From an uncultured Ignavibacteria bacterium (GTDB lineage: Bacteria; Bacteroidota; Ignavibacteria; Kapaibacteriales; UBA2268), in NCBI GenBank assembly GCA_903862655.1, contig CAIOZA010000119.1:1-54716 (forward strand): 54,716 bases of DNA. Reading direction: 5' to 3'. Within the stretch, counting starts at the first letter, position 1, and each line of letters begins with the position of its first letter. Below are positions 7,640-51,339 of the stretch, one piece after another. The position numbers and the translations under genes were made by a program. Under the pieces are notes generated by a model. That model was not told the origin of the DNA. It ran no database searches and saw nothing but the letters and a program-made list of their open reading frames with translations.

Positions 7640-9025
7640 CTATTTTTGATATCTTGAAATAAAATCTTCAACTTCTGGAATTCCACCCTGAAAAATAAGA
7701 TAACCATTACTTGGCTCCCTATCAGTTATTTCATTTGCTATTGGGGTTAACATTATTTCTTTTACCTTTTCTAAATCCTGGCTTTGTCCCAATGCCCAGC
7801 CTAATTTTACATAAGCAACTTCTGGAAGCATATTTCCGGCAGGTACAATCCCAAGATCCATCAAATCACGTCCTGTATCGTAAACATACATTTGCACATA
7901 GCCCCATAATGTTTGGACAGTCATGTAAACAGCAATTCCTTTATCCTGGGCACGTTTGAGAGCAGGATATAGTGGTTTGTTCACATGGCCAAGTCCAGTT
8001 CCGGCGATCACGATACCTTTATATCCATTGTCGATTAGCGAATCGATAATATCCGCCTTCATGTTGGGATAATAATAAACGATTGCTACTCTATCGTCAA
8101 AAGCGGTATTAATAATCACATTTCTATCGTCACGACGTTTTCTGTAATCATTTCTGAGTGGAGTAATCTTTTGCCTGTCAACCATAGCAATCGGTATTTC
8201 ACCAATAGTCCTAAATGTCGATCTATAAGATGAATGCATTTTTCTAACCCGAGTTCCCTGATGTAACAGTCCATAAATGTCGGATGTCGGACCAAACATA
8301 CAAACCATTACTTCAGCAATGTCACTGTCTGCTGCTGTCTTAACGCTATGCATTAAGTTTAATGCGGCATCTGAAGATGGTCTGTCACTTGAACGTTGTG
8401 AACCGACCATTACAATTGGAACAGGAGAATTCTGTACCATAAATGAGAGAATAGCTGAAGTATGATGCATTGTGTCAGTACCATGACCAATCACTATTCC
8501 TTGTGCTCCATTCTGAATTTCGCGTCCGATTGCCTCTGCTGTACCTCTCCATTGATCAGGTCCCATATTCTCACTAAAAACTCCATACAACTTTTCAGTT
8601 TGAAGATTGCAAATGTCTGCAAGTTCAGGAACTGAACCATAAAGCTCACCTGGTGAAAATGCAGGAATTACTGCTCCTGTCCTATAGTCAAGACGGCTTG
8701 CGATTGTTCCGCCTGTGCCTAATAGCTTGACATTAGGTTTTTTGGGGTCAAAGGGAAAAGCTTTTTCCGGTATTTGATAATGTGCTTCTTTTCTTCCGTT
8801 TATATGAATATCTTCAACTTTCTCGCAAGCTATACCGACATTATAACCCGATCTTAGTTTGATTACTATATGCTTATCATCGCCGTTCTCAGAACGTGGT
8901 AGAATTATTCCGATGTGTTGCCCTGTTGCTGTTTTAATTTCAACATCGCTCCAAACCAGAGCTTCGAAATTCTTCAAAGTACTTAAAGCCTGACCTCTAT
9001 AACCTTTATATGATTCATCTGTCAT
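7640..9025 (-). CDS. gatD: Glu-tRNA(Gln) amidotransferase subunit D (archaeal type)
   Basis: GatD is the asparaginase-like half of the archaeal GatDE enzyme. It frees ammonia from an amide donor for GatE, which converts Glu-tRNA(Gln) to Gln-tRNA(Gln). The 461-residue protein has a small N-terminal domain (about residues 20-90), as in archaeal GatD and absent from simple asparaginases. The catalytic domain then shows GTGGTIAS (nucleophile Thr107), GHGTDTMHHTS (Thr183, Asp184) and RVRKMHSSYRSTF (Lys at about 262). These match the Thr-Thr-Asp-Lys set of the Methanothermobacter enzyme. It follows gatE with a one-base gap, and its GGAGG ribosome site lies inside the end of gatE. Taken alone it could be called an asparaginase, but the coupling to gatE settles it. 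Confidence 0.93.
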   Translation of the reverse strand: MTDESYKGYRGQALSTLKNFEALVWSDVEIKTATGQHIGIILPRSENGDDKHIVIKLRSGYNVGIACEKVEDIHINGRKEAHYQIPEKAFPFDPKKPNVKLLGTGGTIASRLDYRTGAVIPAFSPGELYGSVPELADICNLQTEKLYGVFSENMGPDQWRGTAEAIGREIQNGAQGIVIGHGTDTMHHTSAILSFMVQNSPVPIVMVGSQRSSDRPSSDAALNLMHSVKTAADSDIAEVMVCMFGPTSDIYGLLHQGTRVRKMHSSYRSTFRTIGEIPIAMVDRQKITPLRNDYRKRRDDRNVIINTAFDDRVAIVYYYPNMKADIIDSLIDNGYKGIVIAGTGLGHVNKPLYPALKRAQDKGIAVYMTVQTLWGYVQMYVYDTGRDLMDLGIVPAGNMLPEVAYVKLGWALGQSQDLEKVKEIMLTPIANEITDREPSNGYLIFQGGIPEVEDFISRYQK

Positions 9026-9026
9026 C

Positions 9027-10949
9027 TTATGCCTCCATCCTGAAATTATTTGATACGTACTTCCTCACATCTTGTCCGTTGCATCTTCCAATAAGATCGG
9101 CCATGATTAACCCAATTAAGATTTCTGGTCTTTTATCATAATTATATAATTTTTGTTCATTCATGATTTTTATACACTTGTCAAAAGATTGTTTTATATC
9201 TACTTCATTAGCTGGTATTGTCAGCTTTGGATCATATTTACCATCATGTTTAATGATCATTTCCATTGCAAATAATATCCCATCTTTCGCCAGTGAACCA
9301 TCTGCGACTGAAATGAATAATTGTTCCAGATTTGAATTATTCAATAAATCTATGTTAAATTTTTTCTTTTTTAATCTCTTAGAGAATTGAATTAAAGCAT
9401 GAGCAACTAAAATTGGATTGAGTTTTAATTTAATAACAGCATAATCAAAAACTGTTGCAAATTTAGATATTGACAATGGTTCTGCTATATCATCAGAAAT
9501 ATTGAAATCCTTGAACTCTTTCAATCTTATCCAAAATGGAGCAGGAATTTCAGCTCTTAATCTGACTAAACGTTCGTTGGTTATCATAATTGGAGGAAGA
9601 TCAGTATCTGGATACATTCTCTCTGCCCCTGGCAGTATGCGTTCAAAGCCGTTTGTACCATCACGTAAAGCCTGACGGGTTTCAGGAGGAATACCGACTG
9701 TTGCTTCTTTTGCTCTTATAATGATTTCTCTTGAGGCTGTGTCTGTATCTGTTTCATCGCCCCAAACTAAAACTAAGGTATCTTCTTCTTTTGCTCCTAC
9801 ACTTTTGCGTATCTTCTGCCCATCTGCCGACGAGATTGTATTTTCTGCACTATCAGAATGAATAATATTCGGAGTCTTCGACAAGCATGCAATAACACGT
9901 ACTCTGTCTGAGATTTCTTTACCAAAGAATGTATCTGTCTGAGTTTTCCAACTTAGTAACCCTTTGTATCCCGATAGAGTCACACACTTCACAAGAAGAC
10001 CTTTTGAAATAGCATTGGCTATTGGTTCATACTGTGTTTTCTTTAATAATTTCGTTACATCATCAGTTTTTGATTGGAATGTATCGGAAGTTATTCCGCG
10101 TTTGCTAAGCTCATCTCTTAACCTAAGAAGATTCCACTGACGCATTGCTTCGTTGTATGTTAAAAGCGGGATAGATTTGATATGGGCCACACCCTTTATT
10201 TCAATTCTTGTGCCACCGGTTACGCTAACATTAACATCTTCTCTGCCTGCACCAATTCCAGTTCTCGCTTTTCCGGTGCTTCTGGCCACCTTACGAATGA
10301 TCTGGTTCACCTCAGCTACTTCCTGAGGATTAAGCATTTCCGGTGCGGTTACTGTTTCAATTAAGGGCATGCCAAGACGGTCAGCTTTATAAACTCTTAA
10401 ATGCCCAAAATCACTTACTTCTCTGCACGAATCTTCTTCGATAGACATTTGAATAATATTTATCTCACGATCCTTATATGGGATTTTGCCGTTAACACTT
10501 ACTATAGCTGTTCGCTGAAATCCAGTAGGGATACTCCCATCAAGATACTGCTTTCTGGCAATGTGTAATTCGTCAACTATATTGCAATCCATTAACTGTC
10601 CTACCTGAATTGCGATATCCAGAGCCTGGTCGTTCATTATGAATGGAGGAGTGTCGTCCATTTCGTAAGTGCAAACCGTAGCTCTGTTAATCCGATAGAC
10701 AATATCCTTTTTGGTTTTAAATTCCATCAGTGCCGTGCCATCATATTCACCTAGCTCTGAAAGAGTTGGCCTCATGTGTCTTAATATCTCGGCGTGGTAT
10801 TCCTCGCTATATTGGCCTGCTGGGCATCTACAGAAAAGTTTACGTTCTGTGTAAAGTTGTTGGTGAACTTCCAAACCTGATTTGAAGCCTATTCGCGAGT
10901 AGTCTTCCTGTGTCATTTCTTCGAATGGCTTAAAAACAAAATCTTCCAT
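9027..10949 (-). CDS. gatE: Glu-tRNA(Gln) amidotransferase subunit E (archaeal type)
   Basis: GatE binds Glu-tRNA(Gln), activates the glutamyl group by ATP-dependent phosphorylation and amidates it with ammonia from GatD. At 640 residues it has the length of archaeal GatE rather than bacterial GatB (about 480). The N-terminal cradle domain has GLEVHQQL and KLFCRCP, the GatB/GatE signature. A middle insert (about residues 290-440) corresponds to the AspRS-like GAD domain unique to GatE, and GAERMYPDTDLPPI lies just after it. The C-terminal helical tail domain follows. The ATG at 10949 opens the operon with gatD. Base composition looks like that of neighbours, so if the pair was transferred from archaea it was not recent. 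Whether this genome also has GatCAB or GlnRS is not visible. Confidence 0.93.
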   Translation of the reverse strand: MEDFVFKPFEEMTQEDYSRIGFKSGLEVHQQLYTERKLFCRCPAGQYSEEYHAEILRHMRPTLSELGEYDGTALMEFKTKKDIVYRINRATVCTYEMDDTPPFIMNDQALDIAIQVGQLMDCNIVDELHIARKQYLDGSIPTGFQRTAIVSVNGKIPYKDREINIIQMSIEEDSCREVSDFGHLRVYKADRLGMPLIETVTAPEMLNPQEVAEVNQIIRKVARSTGKARTGIGAGREDVNVSVTGGTRIEIKGVAHIKSIPLLTYNEAMRQWNLLRLRDELSKRGITSDTFQSKTDDVTKLLKKTQYEPIANAISKGLLVKCVTLSGYKGLLSWKTQTDTFFGKEISDRVRVIACLSKTPNIIHSDSAENTISSADGQKIRKSVGAKEEDTLVLVWGDETDTDTASREIIIRAKEATVGIPPETRQALRDGTNGFERILPGAERMYPDTDLPPIMITNERLVRLRAEIPAPFWIRLKEFKDFNISDDIAEPLSISKFATVFDYAVIKLKLNPILVAHALIQFSKRLKKKKFNIDLLNNSNLEQLFISVADGSLAKDGILFAMEMIIKHDGKYDPKLTIPANEVDIKQSFDKCIKIMNEQKLYNYDKRPEILIGLIMADLIGRCNGQDVRKYVSNNFRMEA

Positions 10950-37082: not shown

Positions 37083-38447
37083 ATGTCACTCGTAAACAGT
37101 TTGATGGTTGATTATCAACCAAAGTATAATGTTGAGGCTAAAGATGTTCATGGAGAACTTTCTAAACGCATGTTAGCCGATGGATTTGATTTTGTTCTCG
37201 ATCTGAACCAAAGTAATGGTTCTCATTTTATTGACAAAGTTAGTGGTAAAAACTATCTCGATTTTTTCTCATTTTTTGCGGCAATGCCTATTGGCATCAA
37301 CCATCCTAAGATGAATAATGAATCATTTATCAATTATCTTGGTAAAATTGCTCTGAACAAACCATCCAATTCTGATGTTTATACAGAACAGATGGCTGCT
37401 TTTGTTAAAACTTTTTTCAAAGTTGCAGTTCCTGATTACTTCAAATACATATTCATGATTGATGGTGGTGCACTAGCCGTTGAGAATGCACTCAAAACTG
37501 CATTCGACTGGAAAGTAAGAAAGAATTTCAAAAAAGGATATACTTCTGAGCGTGGGCACCAAATTATTCATTTTCATCAGGCATTCCATGGCAGAAGCGG
37601 CTATACTATGTCTATGACTAACACCGATCCTGCTAAGATCCAGCTTTATCCTAAATTTGACTGGCCCAGAATTACCAATCCAAAACTCGAGTTCCCATTG
37701 AATGAAGAGAGAATCAATAATACAATTGCTCTCGAGAAACAAGCCATAGAGGAGATTAAATCTGCATTCATGAATAACAAAGATGACATTGCCGCTATTA
37801 TCATTGAACCAATTCAATGCGAAGGCGGAGACAGTCATTTCAGAACTGAGTTTCTACAGGAACTGAGAAATTTTGCAGATAATAATGAAGCTCTTCTAAT
37901 ATTCGATGAAGTTCAAACAGGCTTGGGAATGACCGGTAAAATGTGGTGCCATCAGCACCATGATGTCAAACCCGATATTCTTGTTTTTGGTAAGAAAGTA
38001 CAGACTTGTGGTATTCTTGTCTCCGATCGTATTGATGACATTCCAGAAAATGTTTTCCATACTTCCAGCAGAATTAATTCTACCTGGGGCAGCAATCTTG
38101 TCGATATGGTTAGGTCAACAAAATATCTTGAGATAATCGAAGAAGATGATTTGGTAGGAAATGCTGAAAGAATGGGGGATTATCTAAAAGACAAAATAAA
38201 TAGTCTTTTTGAGAAATATCCTAATCTCGTTGGTAATCCAAGAGGACGTGGATTATTAAGAGCATTTTCTATGCCTACTGCCGAACTAAGAAATCAATTC
38301 AGAAATGAATGTTATTCTCGTGGATTCATCATTCTGGGTTGCGGAGACAGAAGTATCAGGTTCAGACCTGCATTGGATGTAACTCCAGACACAATTGATT
38401 TAGGTATCAATTTAATTGAAGATATTTTTCAGGACATGAAGCAATAA
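37083..38447 (+). CDS. lat: L-lysine 6-aminotransferase
   Basis: This class III PLP aminotransferase moves the epsilon-amino group of lysine to 2-oxoglutarate, giving 2-aminoadipate semialdehyde, which cyclises to piperideine-6-carboxylate. The protein resembles the mycobacterial and actinobacterial Lat family throughout 454 residues: MIDGGALAVENALKTAFDWK, HFHQAFHGRSGYTMSMTNT, IIEPIQCEGGDSHFR and IFDEVQTGLGMTGK. The cofactor lysine lies in FGKKVQTCG (Lys304 or 305). The GGALAVENA and EGGDSHFR words separate Lat from ornithine and acetylornithine enzymes. No partner dehydrogenase is adjacent. It has a single terminator and no neighbours in the same direction. Confidence 0.92.
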   Translation: MSLVNSLMVDYQPKYNVEAKDVHGELSKRMLADGFDFVLDLNQSNGSHFIDKVSGKNYLDFFSFFAAMPIGINHPKMNNESFINYLGKIALNKPSNSDVYTEQMAAFVKTFFKVAVPDYFKYIFMIDGGALAVENALKTAFDWKVRKNFKKGYTSERGHQIIHFHQAFHGRSGYTMSMTNTDPAKIQLYPKFDWPRITNPKLEFPLNEERINNTIALEKQAIEEIKSAFMNNKDDIAAIIIEPIQCEGGDSHFRTEFLQELRNFADNNEALLIFDEVQTGLGMTGKMWCHQHHDVKPDILVFGKKVQTCGILVSDRIDDIPENVFHTSSRINSTWGSNLVDMVRSTKYLEIIEEDDLVGNAERMGDYLKDKINSLFEKYPNLVGNPRGRGLLRAFSMPTAELRNQFRNECYSRGFIILGCGDRSIRFRPALDVTPDTIDLGINLIEDIFQDMKQ

Positions 38448-42103: not shown

Positions 42104-45100
42104 TTATCTTAAAATATTAACCTTAGTTGTCATTATCTTATCGTTAAATTTTAGGACAAGCAAATACATTCCGTTTGATATTGATTCCGGAGACCATTGT
42201 ATGCCAATTGCATCTGATGTCATTGAACCATTGAAGATTTCGGCAACTTTATTACCTAATAAATCAATCATTATCAGTTCTGCCTTCATTCCGGTTTGCA
42301 GATTAATCCTGATGCGGGCTGATTCCGTAACAACACTTGGATCAACGATCAGAATGTCTGATAAATTACCCTTATCCTCATAAACACCATTTGCTGGATT
42401 TGGATGGTTCGGACAGAAACTCCAGCTTAGTATCTGATGATTCTCTACTGCACAGCCTGTTGCCGAAGTAAAGCCAACAAATGCACGATAGCCCCGGTCA
42501 AGGTTCAGTAGCTTTTTAAAATCGATATGTTCTTCGATCTTTAGCACAAGTTTTGTTGGGTTTGGTACAGTATCGAGATAAACCAAAAATGTTCCATCCT
42601 CTAAAAATTCAATTTTTGAGTAGTAAATTGTACCATCAGATTTGATTGGAATGATATCTTTATTAATACCTCTCATCACTCCGGGTAAGTGCTTGGATGT
42701 ATTCTCTAAAGTGCCATTGCTATTGACAGCAACATGATTACCGTTTGGATCAAAATAGTTCTCGATTTGTGTTGAATCATTTGAAAATGTATCGAACTCA
42801 ACAGCCAGACTATTTCTTATTCCTTCGTAACCTATCCCGCCTCCGATATAACCTATTGCATTTGGTGATGCATTTTGAACTACGAATGCTATCCCATCAG
42901 CTCCGGGAAGAGATCCGTCAACGCATTGGAAGTTTTCGCCATTTGAAAATCTGAAAGCAAATTCTGTTGTGAATCCATCGAGTACCGGAACTGTTGTGTT
43001 ATACCATACAGACCCAATCTGGTTCCTAACATTTTCTGTCATTCTCAAGTATTTTTGAACCTTTCGTGCTTGTCCATTGAAAATCAGTTTTGAGGCATCA
43101 CTGAAATCTGCAAATGTGAATTCAGTTTCGTCGCAAGCAGATGAATTGATTTCAATAATTGCAATTTCGACAAGTCCGCAAGGAGTGTCGAGATACAGAG
43201 TATCTCTCTTTACTTTATTATTTTTATGAATGTATGTTATCGATAATTGTTTCTCCTGTCCGGGATTTATACCAAATGGGGTATTGCTGATTGTTCCTGC
43301 TGACTGATTCTTTAACCTCGCAATTACGGCACTCTTAGTAAATTTCCCGTAATTATGAATATCAACATTTATAGTTTGATCACTGAATATGTTATATTTT
43401 AATACCGGGACTGAATCTGATCCGCTTAAACCTTTCAATGCCAAGGTCAATCCAGGAATTTCAACTAATTTTGTTATGATTTTATTACTGCTGTCAGTCA
43501 CTTCAATCTGAGACTTACCATCAAATCTGTTAGAAATCAGATTGATATAAATTATGGTTGAGTCCCCATCAAAATAGATATCCCACAATGTTTTGCAATT
43601 AATTAAAGAATCTTTATTGGAAACTACTAATTTGATATTACTGGTTGATAGATAAGCTGTAACTTTAAAGCAGGAATCAACTGTTGTGATCCTAGGTGGA
43701 TCCTTGGTAATCTGCTTAAATCCCATTCCGCCAATATATCCGTATGAGTTTGCCCTTCCATAACCATAAATATAAACACCAATCTGATCTTCACATTCAA
43801 TGTCGTGCACTCCATCTGTCACTTTCAAATGAGCATAAAAATATCCACTATTCTGTATCTGATAGAAACTGGAAACAGGGACATAAGCCCCATCAAGCTT
43901 TACTGTGTGTCTTGATCCTTCCGGTGCTATAATAGTTATATACTGCTCAATATATACTTTGCTGTAAGAGAAATTAAATTCATCATACTCCCAAGCCTGT
44001 ATGTTAATCACCTTGCACTTCTTGATAAATTGTTCTTTTGGAGGAATCAGCATCATAAACGGATCACCCAATGCATATTGTCCTGAAGAATCCGAAGCAG
44101 TATATTTGAATATCGCAGCTAGTATTGGTTTGTCCGCAGAAATTTCCTTTGGAGAGTTCAAAGGTGCTTCGTAGAATCCTCCCTTATTTAAAGTGGTTAC
44201 TAGAATTCCATTTACTGTTAAGGCTGTATTATCGTTAGCGGCTAAAATTCTGTAGAGTGAACCCTTCTTTGAATTAAAATCATTGCTTTCTTGAGGTGCG
44301 ACCAGGAATGCGTTGAGACCCCATGTAGATACAGGTGGTAGTTGTTCTATCAGGCAATCTCGTGATGAGTTGCTACCTGTTCTTGTAACAGGAATTTTTG
44401 ATCTCTGCTGCCCGCTGAAAACTGCAATAGGTTTATCAGACCGTATATAGCTACCTGTCATGTCAGGTGTCATTGGTGATGAATTTAGGAAAGATTGAAC
44501 CAGATAAACTTCACCCTTGTTAAGCACTAATTTACGAGTGCCCACAGGATAAGAATAAGATATTGCTGTTGTTGTTATATCAATAGATGTATATTCTTGA
44601 GTTGCAACGATTGCGAATTGTGATGGAGTCCATGACTGATTGAGAGCGGATGTTGCATCGGCATTATAAGCCATTACATAATAAGATTGCCCAAGAACAT
44701 CTGCAGGCAACACAAGAAACGCATCACTTGTTGTCACTGCCTGGCTGTGTGCATAAACAGTAACCTCCTGATCTGACGTTACGTGAAAAGATTGAAATGA
44801 CTTTTTATCTGATTGAAATTGTGAAAAAATGCCACTATCATTGAATCCCGCTAACTCAAAATCAAAAAAGCTAACTTTGAAGACATACATTTGAGCCGGA
44901 TCGGCGATATTAAAATTCTGATTATGTTCAACGCCAAACTTATCAAAATAGACTATCTTGCCAGAGGTTTTCTGTTCACTATTAATAAAAATATAGAGTG
45001 AATCTCCCAATTGTAGCTCAGGAACATCGGAATATCTGTTGTTATGATAATTGGGCAGGTAAGTAATCCAAAAATCTTTGCCTTTGCTGTCCAATTCATC

Positions 45101-45175
45101 AGCAAAGAGATTCTGCCCACAAAGTAGAAGAACAATTATTAGTGAAAATATCTGGATCAATAGTTTTGCTCTCAT
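42104..45175 (-). CDS. Large surface protein: IgGFc-binding-like domain, lectin-like domain, T9SS tail
   Basis: The 1023-residue protein has a signal peptide (about 1-25). Residues about 30-480 match the style of the IgGFc-binding N-terminal domain: FWITYLPNYHNNRYSD, SYYVMAYNADATSAL and IEQLPPVSTWGLNAFLVAPQ are typical. A linker of Ig-like character follows, then about residues 680-920 form a legume-lectin-like domain (GADGIAFVVQNASPNAIG, LAVEFDTFSND, HVAVNSNG, HQILSWSFCP). The last 80 residues are a type A T9SS sorting domain. This combination predicts a secreted or surface-anchored adhesin. There is no obvious partner, and a remnant of another T9SS tail lies just upstream. Confidence 0.85.
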   Translation of the reverse strand: MRAKLLIQIFSLIIVLLLCGQNLFADELDSKGKDFWITYLPNYHNNRYSDVPELQLGDSLYIFINSEQKTSGKIVYFDKFGVEHNQNFNIADPAQMYVFKVSFFDFELAGFNDSGIFSQFQSDKKSFQSFHVTSDQEVTVYAHSQAVTTSDAFLVLPADVLGQSYYVMAYNADATSALNQSWTPSQFAIVATQEYTSIDITTTAISYSYPVGTRKLVLNKGEVYLVQSFLNSSPMTPDMTGSYIRSDKPIAVFSGQQRSKIPVTRTGSNSSRDCLIEQLPPVSTWGLNAFLVAPQESNDFNSKKGSLYRILAANDNTALTVNGILVTTLNKGGFYEAPLNSPKEISADKPILAAIFKYTASDSSGQYALGDPFMMLIPPKEQFIKKCKVINIQAWEYDEFNFSYSKVYIEQYITIIAPEGSRHTVKLDGAYVPVSSFYQIQNSGYFYAHLKVTDGVHDIECEDQIGVYIYGYGRANSYGYIGGMGFKQITKDPPRITTVDSCFKVTAYLSTSNIKLVVSNKDSLINCKTLWDIYFDGDSTIIYINLISNRFDGKSQIEVTDSSNKIITKLVEIPGLTLALKGLSGSDSVPVLKYNIFSDQTINVDIHNYGKFTKSAVIARLKNQSAGTISNTPFGINPGQEKQLSITYIHKNNKVKRDTLYLDTPCGLVEIAIIEINSSACDETEFTFADFSDASKLIFNGQARKVQKYLRMTENVRNQIGSVWYNTTVPVLDGFTTEFAFRFSNGENFQCVDGSLPGADGIAFVVQNASPNAIGYIGGGIGYEGIRNSLAVEFDTFSNDSTQIENYFDPNGNHVAVNSNGTLENTSKHLPGVMRGINKDIIPIKSDGTIYYSKIEFLEDGTFLVYLDTVPNPTKLVLKIEEHIDFKKLLNLDRGYRAFVGFTSATGCAVENHQILSWSFCPNHPNPANGVYEDKGNLSDILIVDPSVVTESARIRINLQTGMKAELIMIDLLGNKVAEIFNGSMTSDAIGIQWSPESISNGMYLLVLKFNDKIMTTKVNILR

Positions 45176-45402: not shown

Positions 45403-45639
45403 AGCAGTCCTAATGTTTTGAATTTAATCAAATATTGAAATTTATAGTATGATTTAAATGAACGTAATGATGAAAATTAATCTATCAAATGTCCTCTTCA
45501 TAAGTGCTTTCGTATATATCTTATAAGAATATTCGATCATTTTCGTAATACATTTTTATTCGATGCGTCAAAATAATAATTATGTAACACAAATTATAAT
45601 AAAAATGTTACAATTTCTGAAAAAATGGTTGGAGAAATA

Positions 45640-45951
45640 ATGATAACTGGCATAGATGTAGCTGAAATTATTTATGAAGCGATTGATGAATTGAATGAAG
45701 AAATATCTGGTAGCAAAAAAATTTCAAAAGAACCCGATACAGTTTTATTTGGTCACGATAGTTTGTTAGATTCTTTGGGATTAGTCAACCTGATCATAAC
45801 TGTTGAAGGATTGATCACTGATAAATTTGATCTGAACATTACAATTGTTAATGAAAAGGCAATGTCACAGAAGAATAGTCCATTCAAATCAGTTCAAACC
45901 TTAAGTGATTTCATCTTAACCTTGATCGAAAGCGAATCCAATGGAGAATAA
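45640..45951 (+). CDS. Acyl/peptidyl carrier protein
   Basis: This is a 103-residue carrier protein. The phosphopantetheine attachment serine is Ser45 in LLDSLGLVNLI, the DSL motif, preceded by FGHDSL. It is slightly longer than fatty-acid ACP (about 78) because of an N-terminal helix and an insert after the DSL helix (NITIVNEKAMSQKNSPF). That fits specialised carriers of biosynthetic operons rather than AcpP. The start is the ATG at 45640 with GGAG five bases upstream. It is the first gene of a five-gene operon and overlaps the next gene by 11 bases. It is expected to hold an acyl group loaded by the AMP-ligase two genes downstream. Confidence 0.86.
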   Translation: MITGIDVAEIIYEAIDELNEEISGSKKISKEPDTVLFGHDSLLDSLGLVNLIITVEGLITDKFDLNITIVNEKAMSQKNSPFKSVQTLSDFILTLIESESNGE

Positions 45952-46642
45952 TGTAATGATAATTACTGGTTCTCGCAAGGGTATCGGTAAGTACTTGGTT
46001 GAATATTATATTCAGCAGGGATATTTTGTTTATGGATGTAGCCGTCAGGATGTTGATTTTTCGTTTCCAAATTATCATCATACAATTATGGATGTTTTTG
46101 ATGAGAGTGCGATTAAAAAGCTAATGTCAACTATCAGAGCTTCTCATGGGAGACTAGATGTACTAATCAATAATGCAGGTATAGCATCAATGAATCATGC
46201 TCTTTTGACCCCAATCGAAACCATGCAGAAAGCTTTTAATACAAATGTATTTGGAGCCTTTTTATTTATGCGCGAATCTGCTAAATTGATGAAAAAAAAT
46301 CATTATGGTCGTATTGTAAATTTTGTTACAATCGCCACTCCACTGAATCTTGAGGGTGAAGCCTCTTATGCCTCTTCAAAAGGTGCATTGGAGTCTTTGA
46401 CTAAAGTAATGGCAAAAGATTTCGCCGATTTTGGAATAACTATCAATGCACTTGGTCCTACACCTGTTGATACTGACTTACTTCGAAATGTTCCTCAGGA
46501 CAAGATCGATAAATTAGTTTCATTTCAGGCAATAAAAAGATATGCTAAAATGGAAGATATTTCAAATGCCATTAATTTCTTCATTCAACCTGAGAGTGAG
46601 TTTATAACCGGGCAGATCATTTATCTTGGTGGAATCAGTTGA
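45941..46642 (+). CDS. Short-chain dehydrogenase/reductase (FabG-like)
   Basis: This is a 233-residue Rossmann-fold SDR. The cofactor motif is TGSRKGIGK (residues 9-17) and the structural motif is NNAG (77-80). The catalytic Tyr143 and Lys147 are in SYASSKGALES. The usual catalytic serine, 13 residues before the tyrosine, is replaced by Thr130 (VNFVTIAT). Basic residues after the glycine loop favour NADP(H). It resembles 3-oxoacyl-ACP reductases, and its overlap with the carrier protein gene suggests that its substrate is bound to that carrier. Overlapping stop and start codons couple it to the ligase gene. Confidence 0.88.
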   Translation: MENNVMIITGSRKGIGKYLVEYYIQQGYFVYGCSRQDVDFSFPNYHHTIMDVFDESAIKKLMSTIRASHGRLDVLINNAGIASMNHALLTPIETMQKAFNTNVFGAFLFMRESAKLMKKNHYGRIVNFVTIATPLNLEGEASYASSKGALESLTKVMAKDFADFGITINALGPTPVDTDLLRNVPQDKIDKLVSFQAIKRYAKMEDISNAINFFIQPESEFITGQIIYLGGIS

Positions 46643-48015
46643 TGATTAACATGTCCAATATTCAGTTTTTGTTTGATGTTTTTGAAAAGAATCGCAGTGA
46701 AACCTCTGTCATCTGGAAAGATATCAGCTATACCTACGATTGGCTGCTCGGCTCTATTTCTGCGTGGAAACAGTTCCTTTCTGACCATAAAGTAACTTCT
46801 GGTGATGTAGTTTCGCTCAAAGGAGACTTTTCACCTCAAAGCATCGCTTGTATGCTGGCTCTTATGGATAATTCAAATATCATCGTTCCTTTCACTCATT
46901 CTGTTGAACTATCATCAAATAGGAAATATGAAATCGCAGGGGTTGAGAAACAGATTCTTATCGACGAGAATGATAATTCAACTTTCGAAGTATTTGAACG
47001 TAAAGCTGATCATGAATATTATAAATATTTGAGGGACTCCAAAGCTCCCGGACTTGTTTTATTCACTTCCGGCACTTCCGGTGAACCAAAAGCCGCTGTT
47101 CACAACTTCAATCTGTTACTTGAGAAGTTTAAAACACATAGGAAGGCTCTCCGCACAGTCAACTTCCTGCTTTTTGATCATTGGGGCGGTCTCAATACTC
47201 TGTTGCATACTCTGTCCAATGCCGGCACCGTATTAGCCCTAAAAGACAGATCTCCTGATTCTGTTTGTGCTTTCATCGAAAAGCATAAGATTGAACTGCT
47301 TCCTGCTTCGCCAACTTTCTTAAATCTTCTCCTGATCAGCGAAGCATATAAAAGACATGATTTGTCTTCGCTTACTCTTATTACTTACGGCACCGAACCA
47401 ATGCCTTTAAGTCTGCTCGAGAGACTTCAAAAGCACTTCCCAGACATTAAACTCCAGCAGACTTACGGTTTGATTGAATTGGGTGTTTTACGCTCCAAAT
47501 CACGTGAGGATGGTTCATTATGGGTGAAAATCGGCGGTGAAGGTTTCAACTGGCGTGTAATTGAGAATATGCTTCAAATCAAGGCTGATTCAGCTATGTT
47601 GGGCTATATCAATGCTCCAAGTCCATTCACAGATGATGGCTGGTTCATGACCGGAGATCAGGTTGAAGTCGATGGCGAATGGCTGAAAATTCTCGGCAGA
47701 AAGTCCGAAATAATTAATGTAGGTGGTGATAAAGTCTATCCGGCAGAAGTCGAGGGCATTATTCTAGAAGTTGAGAATGTATCGGATGTTACAGTCTATG
47801 GTGAAAAAAATCCTATAATGGGGAACATCGTTTGCGCAAAAGTAACTCCAATCCACATCCCCGAGAATGAAAAAGAATTTATAGCTAGTATAAAAAAATT
47901 CTGCAAATCGAAACTGCAGTCTTTCAAGGTTCCCGTTAGGATTAAAATTATCGATACCAATCAATATAATGAACGTTTCAAAAAAGATAGAACAAATGTT
48001 GCACAGAATGATTAA
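46642..48015 (+). CDS. AMP-forming acyl ligase (ANL superfamily)
   Basis: The 457-residue enzyme activates a carboxylic acid with ATP and would transfer it to the carrier protein. The core motifs are LFTSGTSGEPKAAVH (P-loop), QTYGLIELG, GWFMTGDQ and GRKSEIINVGGDKVYPAEVE. The last lysine motif is recognisable as ERFKKDR but is less standard. It is shorter than most acyl-CoA synthetases (about 520-550), which fits stand-alone ligases of carrier-protein systems. The ATG at 46642 overlaps the SDR stop (TGATG). The acid is unknown. Confidence 0.88.
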   Translation: MINMSNIQFLFDVFEKNRSETSVIWKDISYTYDWLLGSISAWKQFLSDHKVTSGDVVSLKGDFSPQSIACMLALMDNSNIIVPFTHSVELSSNRKYEIAGVEKQILIDENDNSTFEVFERKADHEYYKYLRDSKAPGLVLFTSGTSGEPKAAVHNFNLLLEKFKTHRKALRTVNFLLFDHWGGLNTLLHTLSNAGTVLALKDRSPDSVCAFIEKHKIELLPASPTFLNLLLISEAYKRHDLSSLTLITYGTEPMPLSLLERLQKHFPDIKLQQTYGLIELGVLRSKSREDGSLWVKIGGEGFNWRVIENMLQIKADSAMLGYINAPSPFTDDGWFMTGDQVEVDGEWLKILGRKSEIINVGGDKVYPAEVEGIILEVENVSDVTVYGEKNPIMGNIVCAKVTPIHIPENEKEFIASIKKFCKSKLQSFKVPVRIKIIDTNQYNERFKKDRTNVAQND

Positions 48016-48038
48016 TAAACAAATTCGGAGTATATACA

Positions 48039-48926
48039 TTGCAGGAATTTCTAAAAAGAATAACTCCTGATTATCTCAAAAAGTATATCAGAACTTACAG
48101 AGCAAATCAAAAAAAAAAATATACAGAATCTCTTCCTAAGTTAACGCAGGATGAGGTCTATTCTATTCTGAAGGATAAAGCTGAATTGAAGAAAGGCGAC
48201 GTTGCCTTCATTCACAGTTCTGTTGACCATCTGAATATTGATTTCCCATTTTATAATATCATTCCGATGTTGATTGATATCGTCGGAGAAGAAGGAACCA
48301 TCCTATTTCCGACTTATCCCAAGCTTACATCTTACAAATTTCTCAAAAGCGGACAAATATTCGATGTCCGCCGTACACCTACATTTACCGGTTTAATAAA
48401 TGAATTTGCACGCAGATACAAAGGGGCTGTCAGAAGTTTACACCCAACCAAATCATGTGTGGCAATTGGTAAATATGCTGAAGATCTTACTAACACTCAT
48501 CAGAACTCTCCCTATCCTTATAGCGATCAGAGTCCTTATTTCAAGATCACACATTATAATGGCAAAATTATTGGTATAGGTGTTGATCGTACTTTTATTT
48601 CATTTGTTCATTGCATTGATGATGCTCTCAAAGAGAAATTCCCTGTCAAAGTTTATCATGATGAACTGTTCACAGCTAATTGCAAGGATTACTCCGGTAA
48701 TATTGTCGAAGTTCAAACTTTTGCTCACAATATGGAAATGATGTATTTCGATTTACCTGCATTCATCAACAAGTATATTTCTAACGAGATAGTAAAAGAT
48801 ATTAATATTAATGGGAATAAATTCTATCGTGCCTTTTCAAAGCCCTTATTCGATGAAATGTTCAGACTCGCCAGTGAAGAGAACATAACCTTTTACCCAA
48901 AGAAATTCTACAGGAAGAACCAATGA
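48039..48926 (+). CDS. AAC(3)-family N-acyltransferase
   Basis: The 295-residue protein belongs to the aminoglycoside 3-N-acetyltransferase fold: AFIHSSVDHLNIDFPF, LIDIVGEEGTILFPTYP, RSLHPTKSCVAIGKYAEDL and GKIIGIGVDRTFISF are family landmarks, with the catalytic His in the LHPTKS turn. The start is a TTG with GGAG eight bases upstream. In this operon the acyl donor is more likely the carrier protein than acetyl-CoA, and the acceptor is probably an amino sugar rather than an antibiotic; this is inference from context. It overlaps the next gene by four bases. Confidence 0.85.
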   Translation: MQEFLKRITPDYLKKYIRTYRANQKKKYTESLPKLTQDEVYSILKDKAELKKGDVAFIHSSVDHLNIDFPFYNIIPMLIDIVGEEGTILFPTYPKLTSYKFLKSGQIFDVRRTPTFTGLINEFARRYKGAVRSLHPTKSCVAIGKYAEDLTNTHQNSPYPYSDQSPYFKITHYNGKIIGIGVDRTFISFVHCIDDALKEKFPVKVYHDELFTANCKDYSGNIVEVQTFAHNMEMMYFDLPAFINKYISNEIVKDININGNKFYRAFSKPLFDEMFRLASEENITFYPKKFYRKNQ

Positions 48927-50074
48927 AACTAGGCCTGGTACTAACAAATGATTGGGAACTCTTTGGCGATGGTTCAGGTGATTACTTCGAATGTCAGCAT
49001 AACCCTTTGAACGATCTTCTGGATCTGATATCTGCACATAATGCTAAAATCACAATCATGGCTGAACTCGGTCAACAGTTTGCTCATAAGGAGAATATAA
49101 ATAATTATCCGGAATTTGAGAAAATATGCAAATCTTGGGATGAAATATTGCAAAAAGCTATTAAGACAGGTAATGATGTACAGCTTCATTATCATTCTCA
49201 GTGGCTGGGTGCTGAATATCAGAATGGAGAATGGCTGCTCAATATGGACAGATGGTCTTTGCCGTCACTTTCCCCCGAAGAAATTGAACTGAATCTCTCA
49301 AAAGGAAAAAAATATCTCGATGATTTATTAAAACCAATAAATTTTAATTATTCTTGTGATATCTTCAGGGCAGGTGCTTTGTGTATTCAACCCTCAGAAA
49401 AGCCTATCGAAATACTAACCAAAATCGGATTAAAATCTGACTCATCAGTAACTAAGGGAGAGTTTAGTCCGGGATTTTATGATTTCCGTAACGCTTATTC
49501 CAACATTATGCCCTGGTACACGAGCAAGGATATAACTCAGCTTGGGGAAAGGGGAGAGGGAATTCTGGAGATTCCGATTTACACTTTCTCTGGTTTAGAT
49601 TCCTCGGCAATGAAAAAGTATTTTCCAGGTATTTATTATTCAATAAAATTTGGGAAATCAGTCAGTGCAGAATCCCTTCAATGGCAGGATGAACGTGAAC
49701 GTGTCAAAGAAGCCAGGTACCCAAGAAGCAAACGATTTTACAAGAAGAATCAGAAAAAGAATTTAAATTTCTACATGAAAGCAATGTTGAGTAAATCACA
49801 TTTTCATCTGGATTATGATTTTCTCCCTCCTGAGGTTTTTGTGAAAATCTTAAAAAACATTCTAAATGAAAATTCAAAAAGATTCAACTATGACATAATT
49901 CTGCCTGTTGTTGCACTCGGACATATTAAAGATATACACAACACAAAGAATATTGAAATGATTCTGAAATTAATCAAAAATGAACTTGCCGACCAAGTCA
50001 TCTTCTGGACAATGAGTGATGCCGTAAATTATTGGCAGGAAAAAGCACATACAAAAGAAAGGAAATTATCTTGA
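48923..50074 (+). CDS. Polysaccharide-deacetylase-like protein (NodB fold)
   Basis: The 383-residue protein has the layout of a divergent NodB-type carbohydrate deacetylase. The first strand ends in an acidic motif (LVLTNDWELFGDGSGD), the metal-histidine motif is LHYHSQWLG near residue 92, and FRAGALCIQPS follows near residue 148. It has no signal peptide, so it would act in the cytoplasm. A basic segment (about residues 265-290) and a C-terminal helical region are extra. Its start overlaps the acyltransferase stop (ATGA), and its stop overlaps the purD start. It might remove an acetyl group and so expose the amine that the AAC(3)-like enzyme acylates. That pairing is a hypothesis. Confidence 0.78.
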   Translation: MKLGLVLTNDWELFGDGSGDYFECQHNPLNDLLDLISAHNAKITIMAELGQQFAHKENINNYPEFEKICKSWDEILQKAIKTGNDVQLHYHSQWLGAEYQNGEWLLNMDRWSLPSLSPEEIELNLSKGKKYLDDLLKPINFNYSCDIFRAGALCIQPSEKPIEILTKIGLKSDSSVTKGEFSPGFYDFRNAYSNIMPWYTSKDITQLGERGEGILEIPIYTFSGLDSSAMKKYFPGIYYSIKFGKSVSAESLQWQDERERVKEARYPRSKRFYKKNQKKNLNFYMKAMLSKSHFHLDYDFLPPEVFVKILKNILNENSKRFNYDIILPVVALGHIKDIHNTKNIEMILKLIKNELADQVIFWTMSDAVNYWQEKAHTKERKLS

Positions 50075-51339
50075 TAGTATTATTAATCGGAAGCGGTGGT
50101 CGGGAACATGCTTTGGCTTTATCATTAACAAAATCCCCGGACTTAACAAAAATGTATTGCTCCCCAGGTAATCCCGGAATAAATAAAATTGCTGAAAAAG
50201 TAAGTTTGACATTAAATGATCATCAATCTGTTATTGAATTTTGTAAAAATAAAGCTGTTGATTTAGTAGTGATTGGTCCTGAACAACCTCTGGCAGACGG
50301 ACTGTCTGATTCATTGAGATTAGCGGGAATTCATGCTTTTGGTCCATCCAAAGCGGCAGCACAGCTTGAATCATCAAAGGGATTCGCAAAAGAGTTTATG
50401 TTGAGATATAATATTCCGACTGCTGCTTTCCATACATTCATTTCCGGGGATGAGCACAATGCTTTAAATTATGCTGATTCAATGGGATATCCTGTTGTAA
50501 TTAAAGCCGATGGGTTGGCAGCTGGCAAAGGTGTCGTCATTGCTCTTAATCATGAAGAAGCTGAAAATGCAATAAACAGTATGATGGGTGGGCTGTACGA
50601 TAGTGCAGGTAAAAGTCTCGTGATTGAGGAATTCATGCAGGGAGAAGAGGCATCAATTTTTGCTATAACCGATGGAACAGATTTTATAACATTAGCTCCT
50701 GCACAGGATCATAAAAGAATTTACGATGGTGATAAGGGACCAAATACCGGAGGTATGGGTGCTTATGCACCTGCACCAATTGTAACCGAAGATGTAATGA
50801 CCAAAGTAAAGGAATCTATAATAATCCCAGTCCTCAGGGAAATGGCTAGTGAAGGTAATCCTTTTATTGGTTGCCTTTACGTTGGCGTAATGATAAAGGA
50901 TGGTGAACCCAAAGTAGTAGAGTTCAATTGCCGTTTTGGTGATCCTGAAACTCAGGTTGTTATGCCTCTGGTTGATGGGGATGTTCTGAAATTATTCTAC
51001 AGTGCGGCAATCGGTAAGTTAGATCAATCATCTATCAAAACATCAGTATCCGGTCATGCATGTTGTGTTGTCTTGGCTTCAAAAGGATATCCCGGCGATT
51101 ACGAGAAAAATTTCCCGATCAACGGAATAGAAATTGCTGAAGAAAATGGAGCATTTGTATATCATGCCGGAACTTCTGAAACTGATGGAGTCTTATGTTC
51201 TTCAGGTGGACGAGTCCTTGGCGTTACAGCAGTTGCAGATAATCTGAAAGATGCAGTCAGTAAAACCTACGAATCAGTAAACATGATATATTTCAATAAT
51301 GCCTTTTTCAGAAAAGACATAGCTTACAAAGCCTTATGA
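50071..51339 (+). CDS. purD: Phosphoribosylamine-glycine ligase
   Basis: PurD joins phosphoribosylamine and glycine with ATP in the second step of purine synthesis. It is an ATP-grasp enzyme of 422 residues. Motifs are VLLIGSGGREHALA at the start, GPEQPLADGLSD, VIKADGLAAGKGVVIA, HKRIYDGDKGPNTGGMGAYAP and EFNCRFGDPETQ. The start is the TTG at 50071, which has AGGA seven bases upstream and overlaps the stop of the deacetylase-like gene. A longer frame from 50032 would add residues that do not belong to the family. It is probably co-transcribed with the preceding operon but is functionally unrelated. No other purine gene is in the window. Confidence 0.96.
   Translation: MIVLLIGSGGREHALALSLTKSPDLTKMYCSPGNPGINKIAEKVSLTLNDHQSVIEFCKNKAVDLVVIGPEQPLADGLSDSLRLAGIHAFGPSKAAAQLESSKGFAKEFMLRYNIPTAAFHTFISGDEHNALNYADSMGYPVVIKADGLAAGKGVVIALNHEEAENAINSMMGGLYDSAGKSLVIEEFMQGEEASIFAITDGTDFITLAPAQDHKRIYDGDKGPNTGGMGAYAPAPIVTEDVMTKVKESIIIPVLREMASEGNPFIGCLYVGVMIKDGEPKVVEFNCRFGDPETQVVMPLVDGDVLKLFYSAAIGKLDQSSIKTSVSGHACCVVLASKGYPGDYEKNFPINGIEIAEENGAFVYHAGTSETDGVLCSSGGRVLGVTAVADNLKDAVSKTYESVNMIYFNNAFFRKDIAYKAL

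Follow-up and report, generated by a model that had tools for sequence, protein, structure and literature searches.

The DNA stretch analysed here (54,716 nucleotides, contig CAIOZA010000119.1 of an uncultured Ignavibacteria bacterium; hereafter the window) carries at positions 45640-50074 a cassette of five genes that an initial annotation had read as one operon and one pathway. They code for an acyl carrier protein (ACP), a short-chain dehydrogenase/reductase (SDR), an adenosine monophosphate (AMP)-forming acid ligase, an N-acyltransferase of the AAC(3) fold (denoted as AAC) and a NodB-like protein of the carbohydrate esterase family 4 (CE4) fold (denoted as NOD). The listing of open reading frames (ORFs) of the window confirmed all five on the plus strand (Table 1), each overlapping the next or lying at most 23 bp from it, the junctions being, in order, an 11-bp overlap, a 4-bp or 1-bp overlap, a 23-bp gap and a 4-bp overlap. 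The ACP gene has a further in-frame ATG at 45625, yet GGAG directly precedes 45640. The tight packing agrees with the proposed operon, from which purD had been omitted though its 5' end overlaps the NOD gene by 4 bp (an alternative in-frame TTG lies at 50032); purD is the sixth member of the gene run and the housekeeping anchor of the locus.

Table 1 Genes of the cassette and flanking genes in the window. Positions are those of the whole stretch. Length denotes number of amino acids.
Feature	Length	Position	Strand	Basis
Acyl carrier protein (ACP)	103	45640..45951	+	ORF; weak DltC matches; carrier alignment
SDR oxidoreductase, FabG-like	233	45941..46642	+	Pfam PF13561/PF00106; NCBIfam; alignment
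AMP-forming acid ligase		46642 (ATG), or upstream TTG 46639, ..48015	+	Pfam PF00501, PF13193 over cut-off
AAC(3)-fold N-acyltransferase (AAC)	295	48039..48926	+	Pfam Antibiotic_NAT; AlphaFold; alignments
CE4-like (NodB-fold) putative deacetylase (NOD)	383	48923..50074	+	AlphaFold fold match; alignment
purD (phosphoribosylamine-glycine ligase)		TTG 50071..51339	+	TIGR00877, 496.2 bits vs cut-off 288
IgGFc-binding + L-type lectin protein	1023	42104..45175	-	Pfam PF17517, PF00139 over cut-off

AAC and NOD are the constant core of the cassette, and the acyl-supply genes are a changing module. We read 15 related loci besides the window, 11 of which have AAC and NOD side by side. The module is ACP-SDR-ligase (type A) in the window, in L029 and in L023, where only the ligase is seen before the contig end; the type A genes occur in a different order in L024, L025, L026 and L030. 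It is KASIII-ACP-SDR (type B; KASIII denotes 3-oxoacyl-ACP synthase III) in L027, L031, L032 and L035, and ACP-SDR-ligase-LuxE-LuxC (type C) in L022 and, as far as the contig extends, in L021. Directly after the cassette stands purD in the window and in seven loci that represent types A, B and C (L021, L022, L023, L027, L029, L031 and L032), and the opposite flank of both the window (type A) and L031 (type B) has recA, recX and an OmpA-like gene. The common flanks of the latter two show that different modules occupy one locus. The single five-gene pathway of the initial annotation is therefore not fixed, as its supply genes are replaceable while AAC and NOD stay. We also compared the locus with stretches of G080, G066 and G068, which belong to the same genus and lack the cassette; one flanking gene was conserved there, neither a cassette gene nor the second flank was found, and no clean empty site was shown. 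As a separate observation, an unassigned protein of about 144-164 amino acids is encoded directly before AAC in L024, L025, L027, L030, L031 and L118 and after AAC in L035 (by eye; identities marked in this way come from translations read directly, without profile search). It was weakly similar to Gcn5-related N-acetyltransferases (GNAT) once (E 0.018, below cut-off), had no match in another test, and is absent from the window operon.

The two core families also occur together across genomes. Among 123 genomes of the window's order, AAC has a match in 15, all of which also carry NOD (genus-level hypergeometric probability 6e-10, uncorrected for kinship). For NOD, 19 genomes gave a match. Fifteen of them belong to the family of the window and are exactly those with an AAC match; one of the 15, G070, matches NOD distantly. 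The other four matches are distant and lie in another family; the one that we read, L034, is a fused protein of 754 amino acids with a methyltransferase.

Relatives were also searched for in named genomes. A scan with the single NOD of the window gave 78 pattern matches, none of which was confirmed, and a query with a NOD alignment gave 153 relatives, the best 80 of which were analysed. In 29 of these 80 loci the distance between AAC and NOD is at most 200 bp, and in one further locus it is about 1.2 kb; the AAC-NOD loci span Kapabacteria/Ignavibacteria, Acidobacteria, a Bathyarchaeota bin, Cloacimonadota, Elusimicrobia and Bacteroidales. All five families are present in the acidobacterial locus L053, in which ACP-SDR-ligase-AAC is convergent with NOD, and the acidobacterial locus L051 has KASIII in place of the SDR and ligase of L053. 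The two loci are sisters in both trees (96/95 for AAC and 99/98 for NOD). A constant core with differing supply modules is thus found in two phyla. KASIII without an SDR match is seen in L051 and in further acidobacterial loci.

The fold assignments that the initial annotation had given to both core proteins hold by predicted structure. AAC matches Pfam Antibiotic_NAT (PF02522) with 105.7 bits against a cut-off of 25, the profile match covering no more than roughly the first two thirds of its length, and scores 62.5 bits with the NCBIfam AAC(3) model NF033082, below the equivalog cut-off of 270. Its AlphaFold model (predicted local distance difference test, pLDDT, of 96.1) matches AAC(3)-type structures with Z scores of about 23-25 (for 6mn1, Z 25.4 and root-mean-square deviation 2.7 over 240 residues) and FrbF, a phosphonate-biosynthesis enzyme with the AAC(3) fold, with Z 24.5. 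Residue H191 aligns with H183 of BA2930, which is mutated in several of the matching structure entries, and in an alignment of all 30 loci with an AAC match and the window, this catalytic position is His in 25 of the 31 proteins, that of the window included. The cassette protein thus resembles the AAC(3)/Antibiotic_NAT superfamily (BA2930, YokD, FrbF and AAC(3)-III) in its fold, RSxHP motif and catalytic His, but differs from it in having carrier and ligase neighbours and in scoring far below the AAC(3) cut-off. Cj1296/7 of Campylobacter is an AAC(3)-family protein.

NOD itself had no Pfam match up to E 0.1, Polysacc_deac_1 included, and a distant fused relative matched Polysacc_deac_1 at E 0.1 only, below cut-off. 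A PDB sequence search with a NOD profile gave one chain at E 0.27, which was not credible, and the fold search settled the assignment. The AlphaFold model (pLDDT 93.9) has the CE4 barrel fold, in divergent form, with Z 22.3 to 3lm3 (a putative glycoside hydrolase/deacetylase), 21.3 to 3qbu (HP0310) and 20.3 to 3rxz; the values were 17.2 for ArnD, 19.7 for the PuuE allantoinase and about 18 for barrels of glycoside hydrolase family 57, which belong to the wider superfamily. Residues D10, E12, H89, H91, R149, D173 and H334 are invariant in all 38 proteins of the alignment used for folding (37 of the 80 loci and the window), and the variant motifs TNDWE, QLHxHPQW, FRAGA, DSSV and GHxK can be read by eye. 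No signal peptide was seen in the sequence of NOD, which begins at its first barrel strand and is taken for this reason as probably cytoplasmic.

As for the supply proteins of the window, the ACP had no Pfam match up to E 0.1, PP-binding included, and its NCBIfam matches to DltC were weak (E 1e-4, below cut-off). The carrier of a KASIII-type relative (L031) passes Pfam PP-binding with 22.3 against 20.8. The predicted phosphopantetheine attachment residue is Ser45 in D44-S45-L46 (numbered from the 45640 start), as previously annotated; the D/E-S dipeptide is kept in 15 of 16 aligned carriers, that of the window included, the exception being L058 with an inserted residue. The carriers grouping with the window ACP are of a long-loop type with an extra EKAMS...SPF insert, and the window's own genome has one match to a phosphopantetheinyl transferase. 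The SDR scores 143.7 bits with Pfam and has 3-oxoacyl-ACP reductase as its best NCBIfam model (142.6 bits against a cut-off of 297.75); it retains YxxxK, and Thr replaces the usual catalytic Ser (alignment, by eye). The ligase scores 95.1 bits with Pfam AMP-binding, and its C-terminal RFKKxR motif, lysines included, is conserved in six of six aligned proteins.

The initial annotation had pointed to polysaccharide genes near the cassette as something to look for. Such genes accompany the AAC-deacetylase pairs of Bacteroidales, and none was seen beside the operon in the window. For AAC-NOD pairs, the tally of neighbours covered 117 proteins of 14 of the 30 AAC loci (10 of the 14 from Bacteroidales; 10 Kapabacterial and six acidobacterial loci are outside it) and gave 12 glycosyltransferases (GT) of group 1, eight of GT family 2 (GT2), seven WecG, four EpsG and four Polysacc_synt. 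For NOD loci without AAC, it covered 138 neighbours of 18 of 50 loci from mixed phyla, leaving out L085 (seven proteins) and two proteins of L106, and gave 17 GT of group 1, seven of family 2, seven WecG and four polysaccharide export proteins. Both tallies used ORFs of at least 150 amino acids, the longest being dropped (more than 1100 and more than 1000 amino acids, respectively). The pair of Butyricimonas synergistica DSM 23225 (L108) lies among flippase-, polymerase- and glycosyltransferase-like genes (by eye), and the pair of the Bathyarchaeota bin (L089) is beside an FkbH-like gene, with no glycosyltransferase seen within 8.8 kb. L022, which is from the window's order, has genes for GT2, GT4-like, UDP-sugar dehydrogenase and PIG-L proteins beyond purD, and no glycan gene was seen by eye adjoining the cassettes of L051 and L053. 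In the window's own genome there are 25 matches to GT2, 23 of them over cut-off, and 13 to DegT-type aminotransferases, four of them strong.

Genes with an L-type lectin domain adjoin the cassette in four of nine cassette genomes tested, namely those of the window, G042, G079 and G081. These four genomes have only three to seven lectin-domain matches each, and the control gave two of 14 named genomes. In G081 the lectin genes stand on both sides of the cassette with 71 bits, below the cut-off of 78.3. The lectin neighbour in G079 (contig C82) reads as two ORFs, and the copies of G042 and G081 are on C39 and C37, respectively. The lectin neighbours of the window and G042 may be one ancestral arrangement, and the divergent lectin protein of the window would be a candidate glycan-binding partner.

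From the gene set, co-occurrence, module differences, predicted folds and conserved residues, we propose that the cassette is probably, though by no means certainly, a cytoplasmic N-acyl exchange unit that acts on an amino sugar of a surface glycan. The amino sugar, in the cytoplasm and probably linked to a nucleotide or lipid, would lose its N-acetyl group through the action of the CE4-like enzyme. In the version of the window, the AMP-ligase would charge a short acid onto Ser45 of the dedicated carrier, the SDR would reduce or oxidise the carrier-bound acid, in the simplest case from 3-oxo to 3-hydroxyacyl, and the AAC(3)-fold enzyme would then transfer the carrier-bound acyl group onto the amine exposed by deacetylation. 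We suggest a 3-hydroxyacyl group because the KASIII-ACP-SDR version in relatives would make one; since acidobacterial loci have KASIII without an SDR match, this may not hold for all. The observed difference of modules would then correspond to a change of the acyl group on the surface sugar.

Several observations weigh against this proposal. The families travel together, as the linked gene set of the initial annotation implied, but AAC and NOD are unlinked in two of the 15 genomes, which partly realises the scattering of genes in relatives that the initial annotation had named as contrary evidence. One of them is G059, where NOD stands alone (L033) and AAC, on a different contig, follows an SDR 45% identical to the type B SDR. 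The other is G071; the contigs of L028 and L032 begin just before NOD, and in G071, the genome of L028, AAC is alone on another contig, so the two genes are truly apart there. No AAC was found in the fetched stretch for 50 of the 80 NOD loci, some of which are on short contigs. Among the ORFs of the window, reading by eye found no sugar-nucleotide, polysaccharide or glycosyltransferase gene beside the operon, most of the Kapabacterial loci that we read have no glycan gene adjoining the cassette, and the tallies given above are raw counts, uncorrected for background. The expected product of LuxE-LuxC is an aldehyde and not an acyl donor. The catalytic His position of AAC is Tyr in six of the 31 proteins (L051, L053, L055, L058, L060 and L065), all acidobacterial, which counts against a uniform mechanism. 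Finally, neither of the canonical metal motifs TFDD and H(S/T)xxH, as defined in PMC11713874, is present in NOD, and hence its metal site and activity are putative.

With respect to the last point, BoPDA, a CE4 enzyme of a Bacteroides ovatus capsule locus, has an unusual His-Asp metal site, and no activity on common carbohydrates was found for it (PMC11713874). The variant site of NOD therefore neither excludes nor proves activity. BoPDA resembles NOD as a divergent CE4 protein with a noncanonical metal site and is encoded in a surface-polysaccharide locus; a signal peptide is predicted for BoPDA and a carbohydrate-binding module is present in it, whereas NOD starts at its first barrel strand. 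A parallel to the core as a pair is given by HfsH and HfsK of Caulobacter. HfsH is a deacetylase and HfsK has the GNAT fold, and the AAC of the window has the AAC(3) fold instead. A deacetylase and a putative N-acyltransferase modify the holdfast surface polysaccharide there, and a dedicated carrier or acyl module, both of which the cassette has, is not mentioned in the accessible portion of the article (PMC6372794).

Of the readings that compete with an exchange unit for surface sugars, one is a small-molecule pathway, in which an N-acyl amine or amide, serving as a signal or metabolite, is assembled on the carrier. The substrate hydrolysed by the CE4-like enzyme would then be an amide of that molecule and not of a glycan. 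It is consistent with a gene run that is self-contained, with no glycosyltransferase or exporter within, with CE4 folds that include non-sugar amidohydrolases such as the PuuE allantoinase, and with the match of AAC to FrbF. The glycan neighbourhoods of the homologous pairs and of NOD alone argue against it, and we regard it as unlikely.

The initial annotation could match the gene set to no described system, which is half right: the triad of ACP, reductase and AMP-ligase is known from flagellin glycosylation islands (PMC7874193, and similarly PMC4875605), and no description of the AAC(3)-CE4-carrier combination was found among the literature matches listed (titles and abstract openings). The polar-flagellin glycosylation island of Aeromonas group II contains genes for an ACP, a 3-oxoacyl-ACP reductase and an AMP-dependent synthetase (orf1-orf2-orf3), luxE and luxC (PMC7874193). 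The order of the first three is that of the window, and a relative of the window (L022/L037) adds LuxE-LuxC likewise. In Aeromonas, however, these genes lie amid pse and glycosyltransferase genes, whereas the cassette of the window is beside purD, without LuxE or LuxC and without sugar-biosynthesis or glycosyltransferase genes in the cluster. That paper mentions deacetylases in connection with group I islands and, for group II, acetyltransferases that are not specified further; the word aminoglycoside does not appear in it. The flagellin glycosylation islands of enterobacteria have Acp, FabG, CaiC, LuxE and LuxC, and a liposugar component has been proposed for them (PMC4875605). Their likeness to the cassette lies in the fatty-acid-type supply genes; N-acetyltransferases of unknown specificity are described, and neither aminoglycoside nor deacetylase is mentioned in the main text.

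These islands give rise to a second alternative, namely that the cassette puts an acyl group on a flagellin sugar, as suspected for Aeromonas and enterobacteria. Besides the common triad, the window has, at a distance of 9-12 kb, genes for a sigma factor of the FliA/WhiG type (over cut-off) and for an FlhF-like protein (167.2 against 174.15 bits), its genome has three flagellin matches, and the LuxE-LuxC version occurs within its order. We checked a flagellin-specific role by co-occurrence over the 123 genomes, and it was unsupported: flagellin matches are found in 78 genomes versus 15 for the core and thus flagellin does not track the cassette, and G072 (84% complete) has the cassette core with no flagellin match. 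Homologous pairs, moreover, sit in exopolysaccharide-type clusters of Bacteroidales. This alternative seems to us improbable and is placed after the small-molecule pathway. That AAC is a detoxifying aminoglycoside acetyltransferase using acetyl-CoA, as its similarity to Pfam Antibiotic_NAT and NCBIfam AAC(3) might suggest, is very hard to reconcile with its score far below the AAC(3) cut-off and its position beside carrier, ligase or KASIII genes and NOD in Kapabacteria and Acidobacteria.

As a wider and tentative extension of the exchange-unit proposal, which we consider possible but doubtful, the AAC(3) fold may include widespread carrier-dependent N-acyltransferases of amino sugars that work with a cytoplasmic CE4 deacetylase and with plug-in acyl modules, whose exchange at a fixed locus would alter the chemistry of the surface; the resistance acetyltransferases would be offshoots of this glycan-modifying class. 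If the exchange-unit proposal itself is true, AAC(3)-fold proteins would have a native role beyond drug resistance, a dedicated pair of enzymes would serve to replace the acyl group of an amino sugar at the surface, and bacteria could change that group by swapping the supply module with the core kept. The unexplained fatty-acid-type genes of flagellin islands would also become testable through a smaller cassette.

Other features were noted in the same genome and window. On contig C50 (L126:4723-15717), a protein of 3664 amino acids has three GT1 and two GT2 stretches and methyltransferase and tetratricopeptide repeat matches; its gene adjoins one for a WbqC-like protein, has a DegT aminotransferase gene in the vicinity, and makes up a multi-glycosyltransferase island. 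On contig C93 (L128:7787-13636), rmlC-, rmlA- and rmlD-like dTDP-rhamnose genes (by eye) lie about 3-5 kb from a flagellin gene. In the window, about 7 kb from the cassette, an L-lysine 6-transaminase is encoded at 37083-38447 on the plus strand (TIGR03251, 642 bits, over cut-off). GatDE, a tRNA-dependent Gln amidotransferase, is regarded as archaeal, and archaeal-type GatD and GatE are encoded in this bacterial genome at 7640-10949 of the window on the minus strand (NCBIfam, 519.7 against 310 and 532.9 against 456 bits, respectively).

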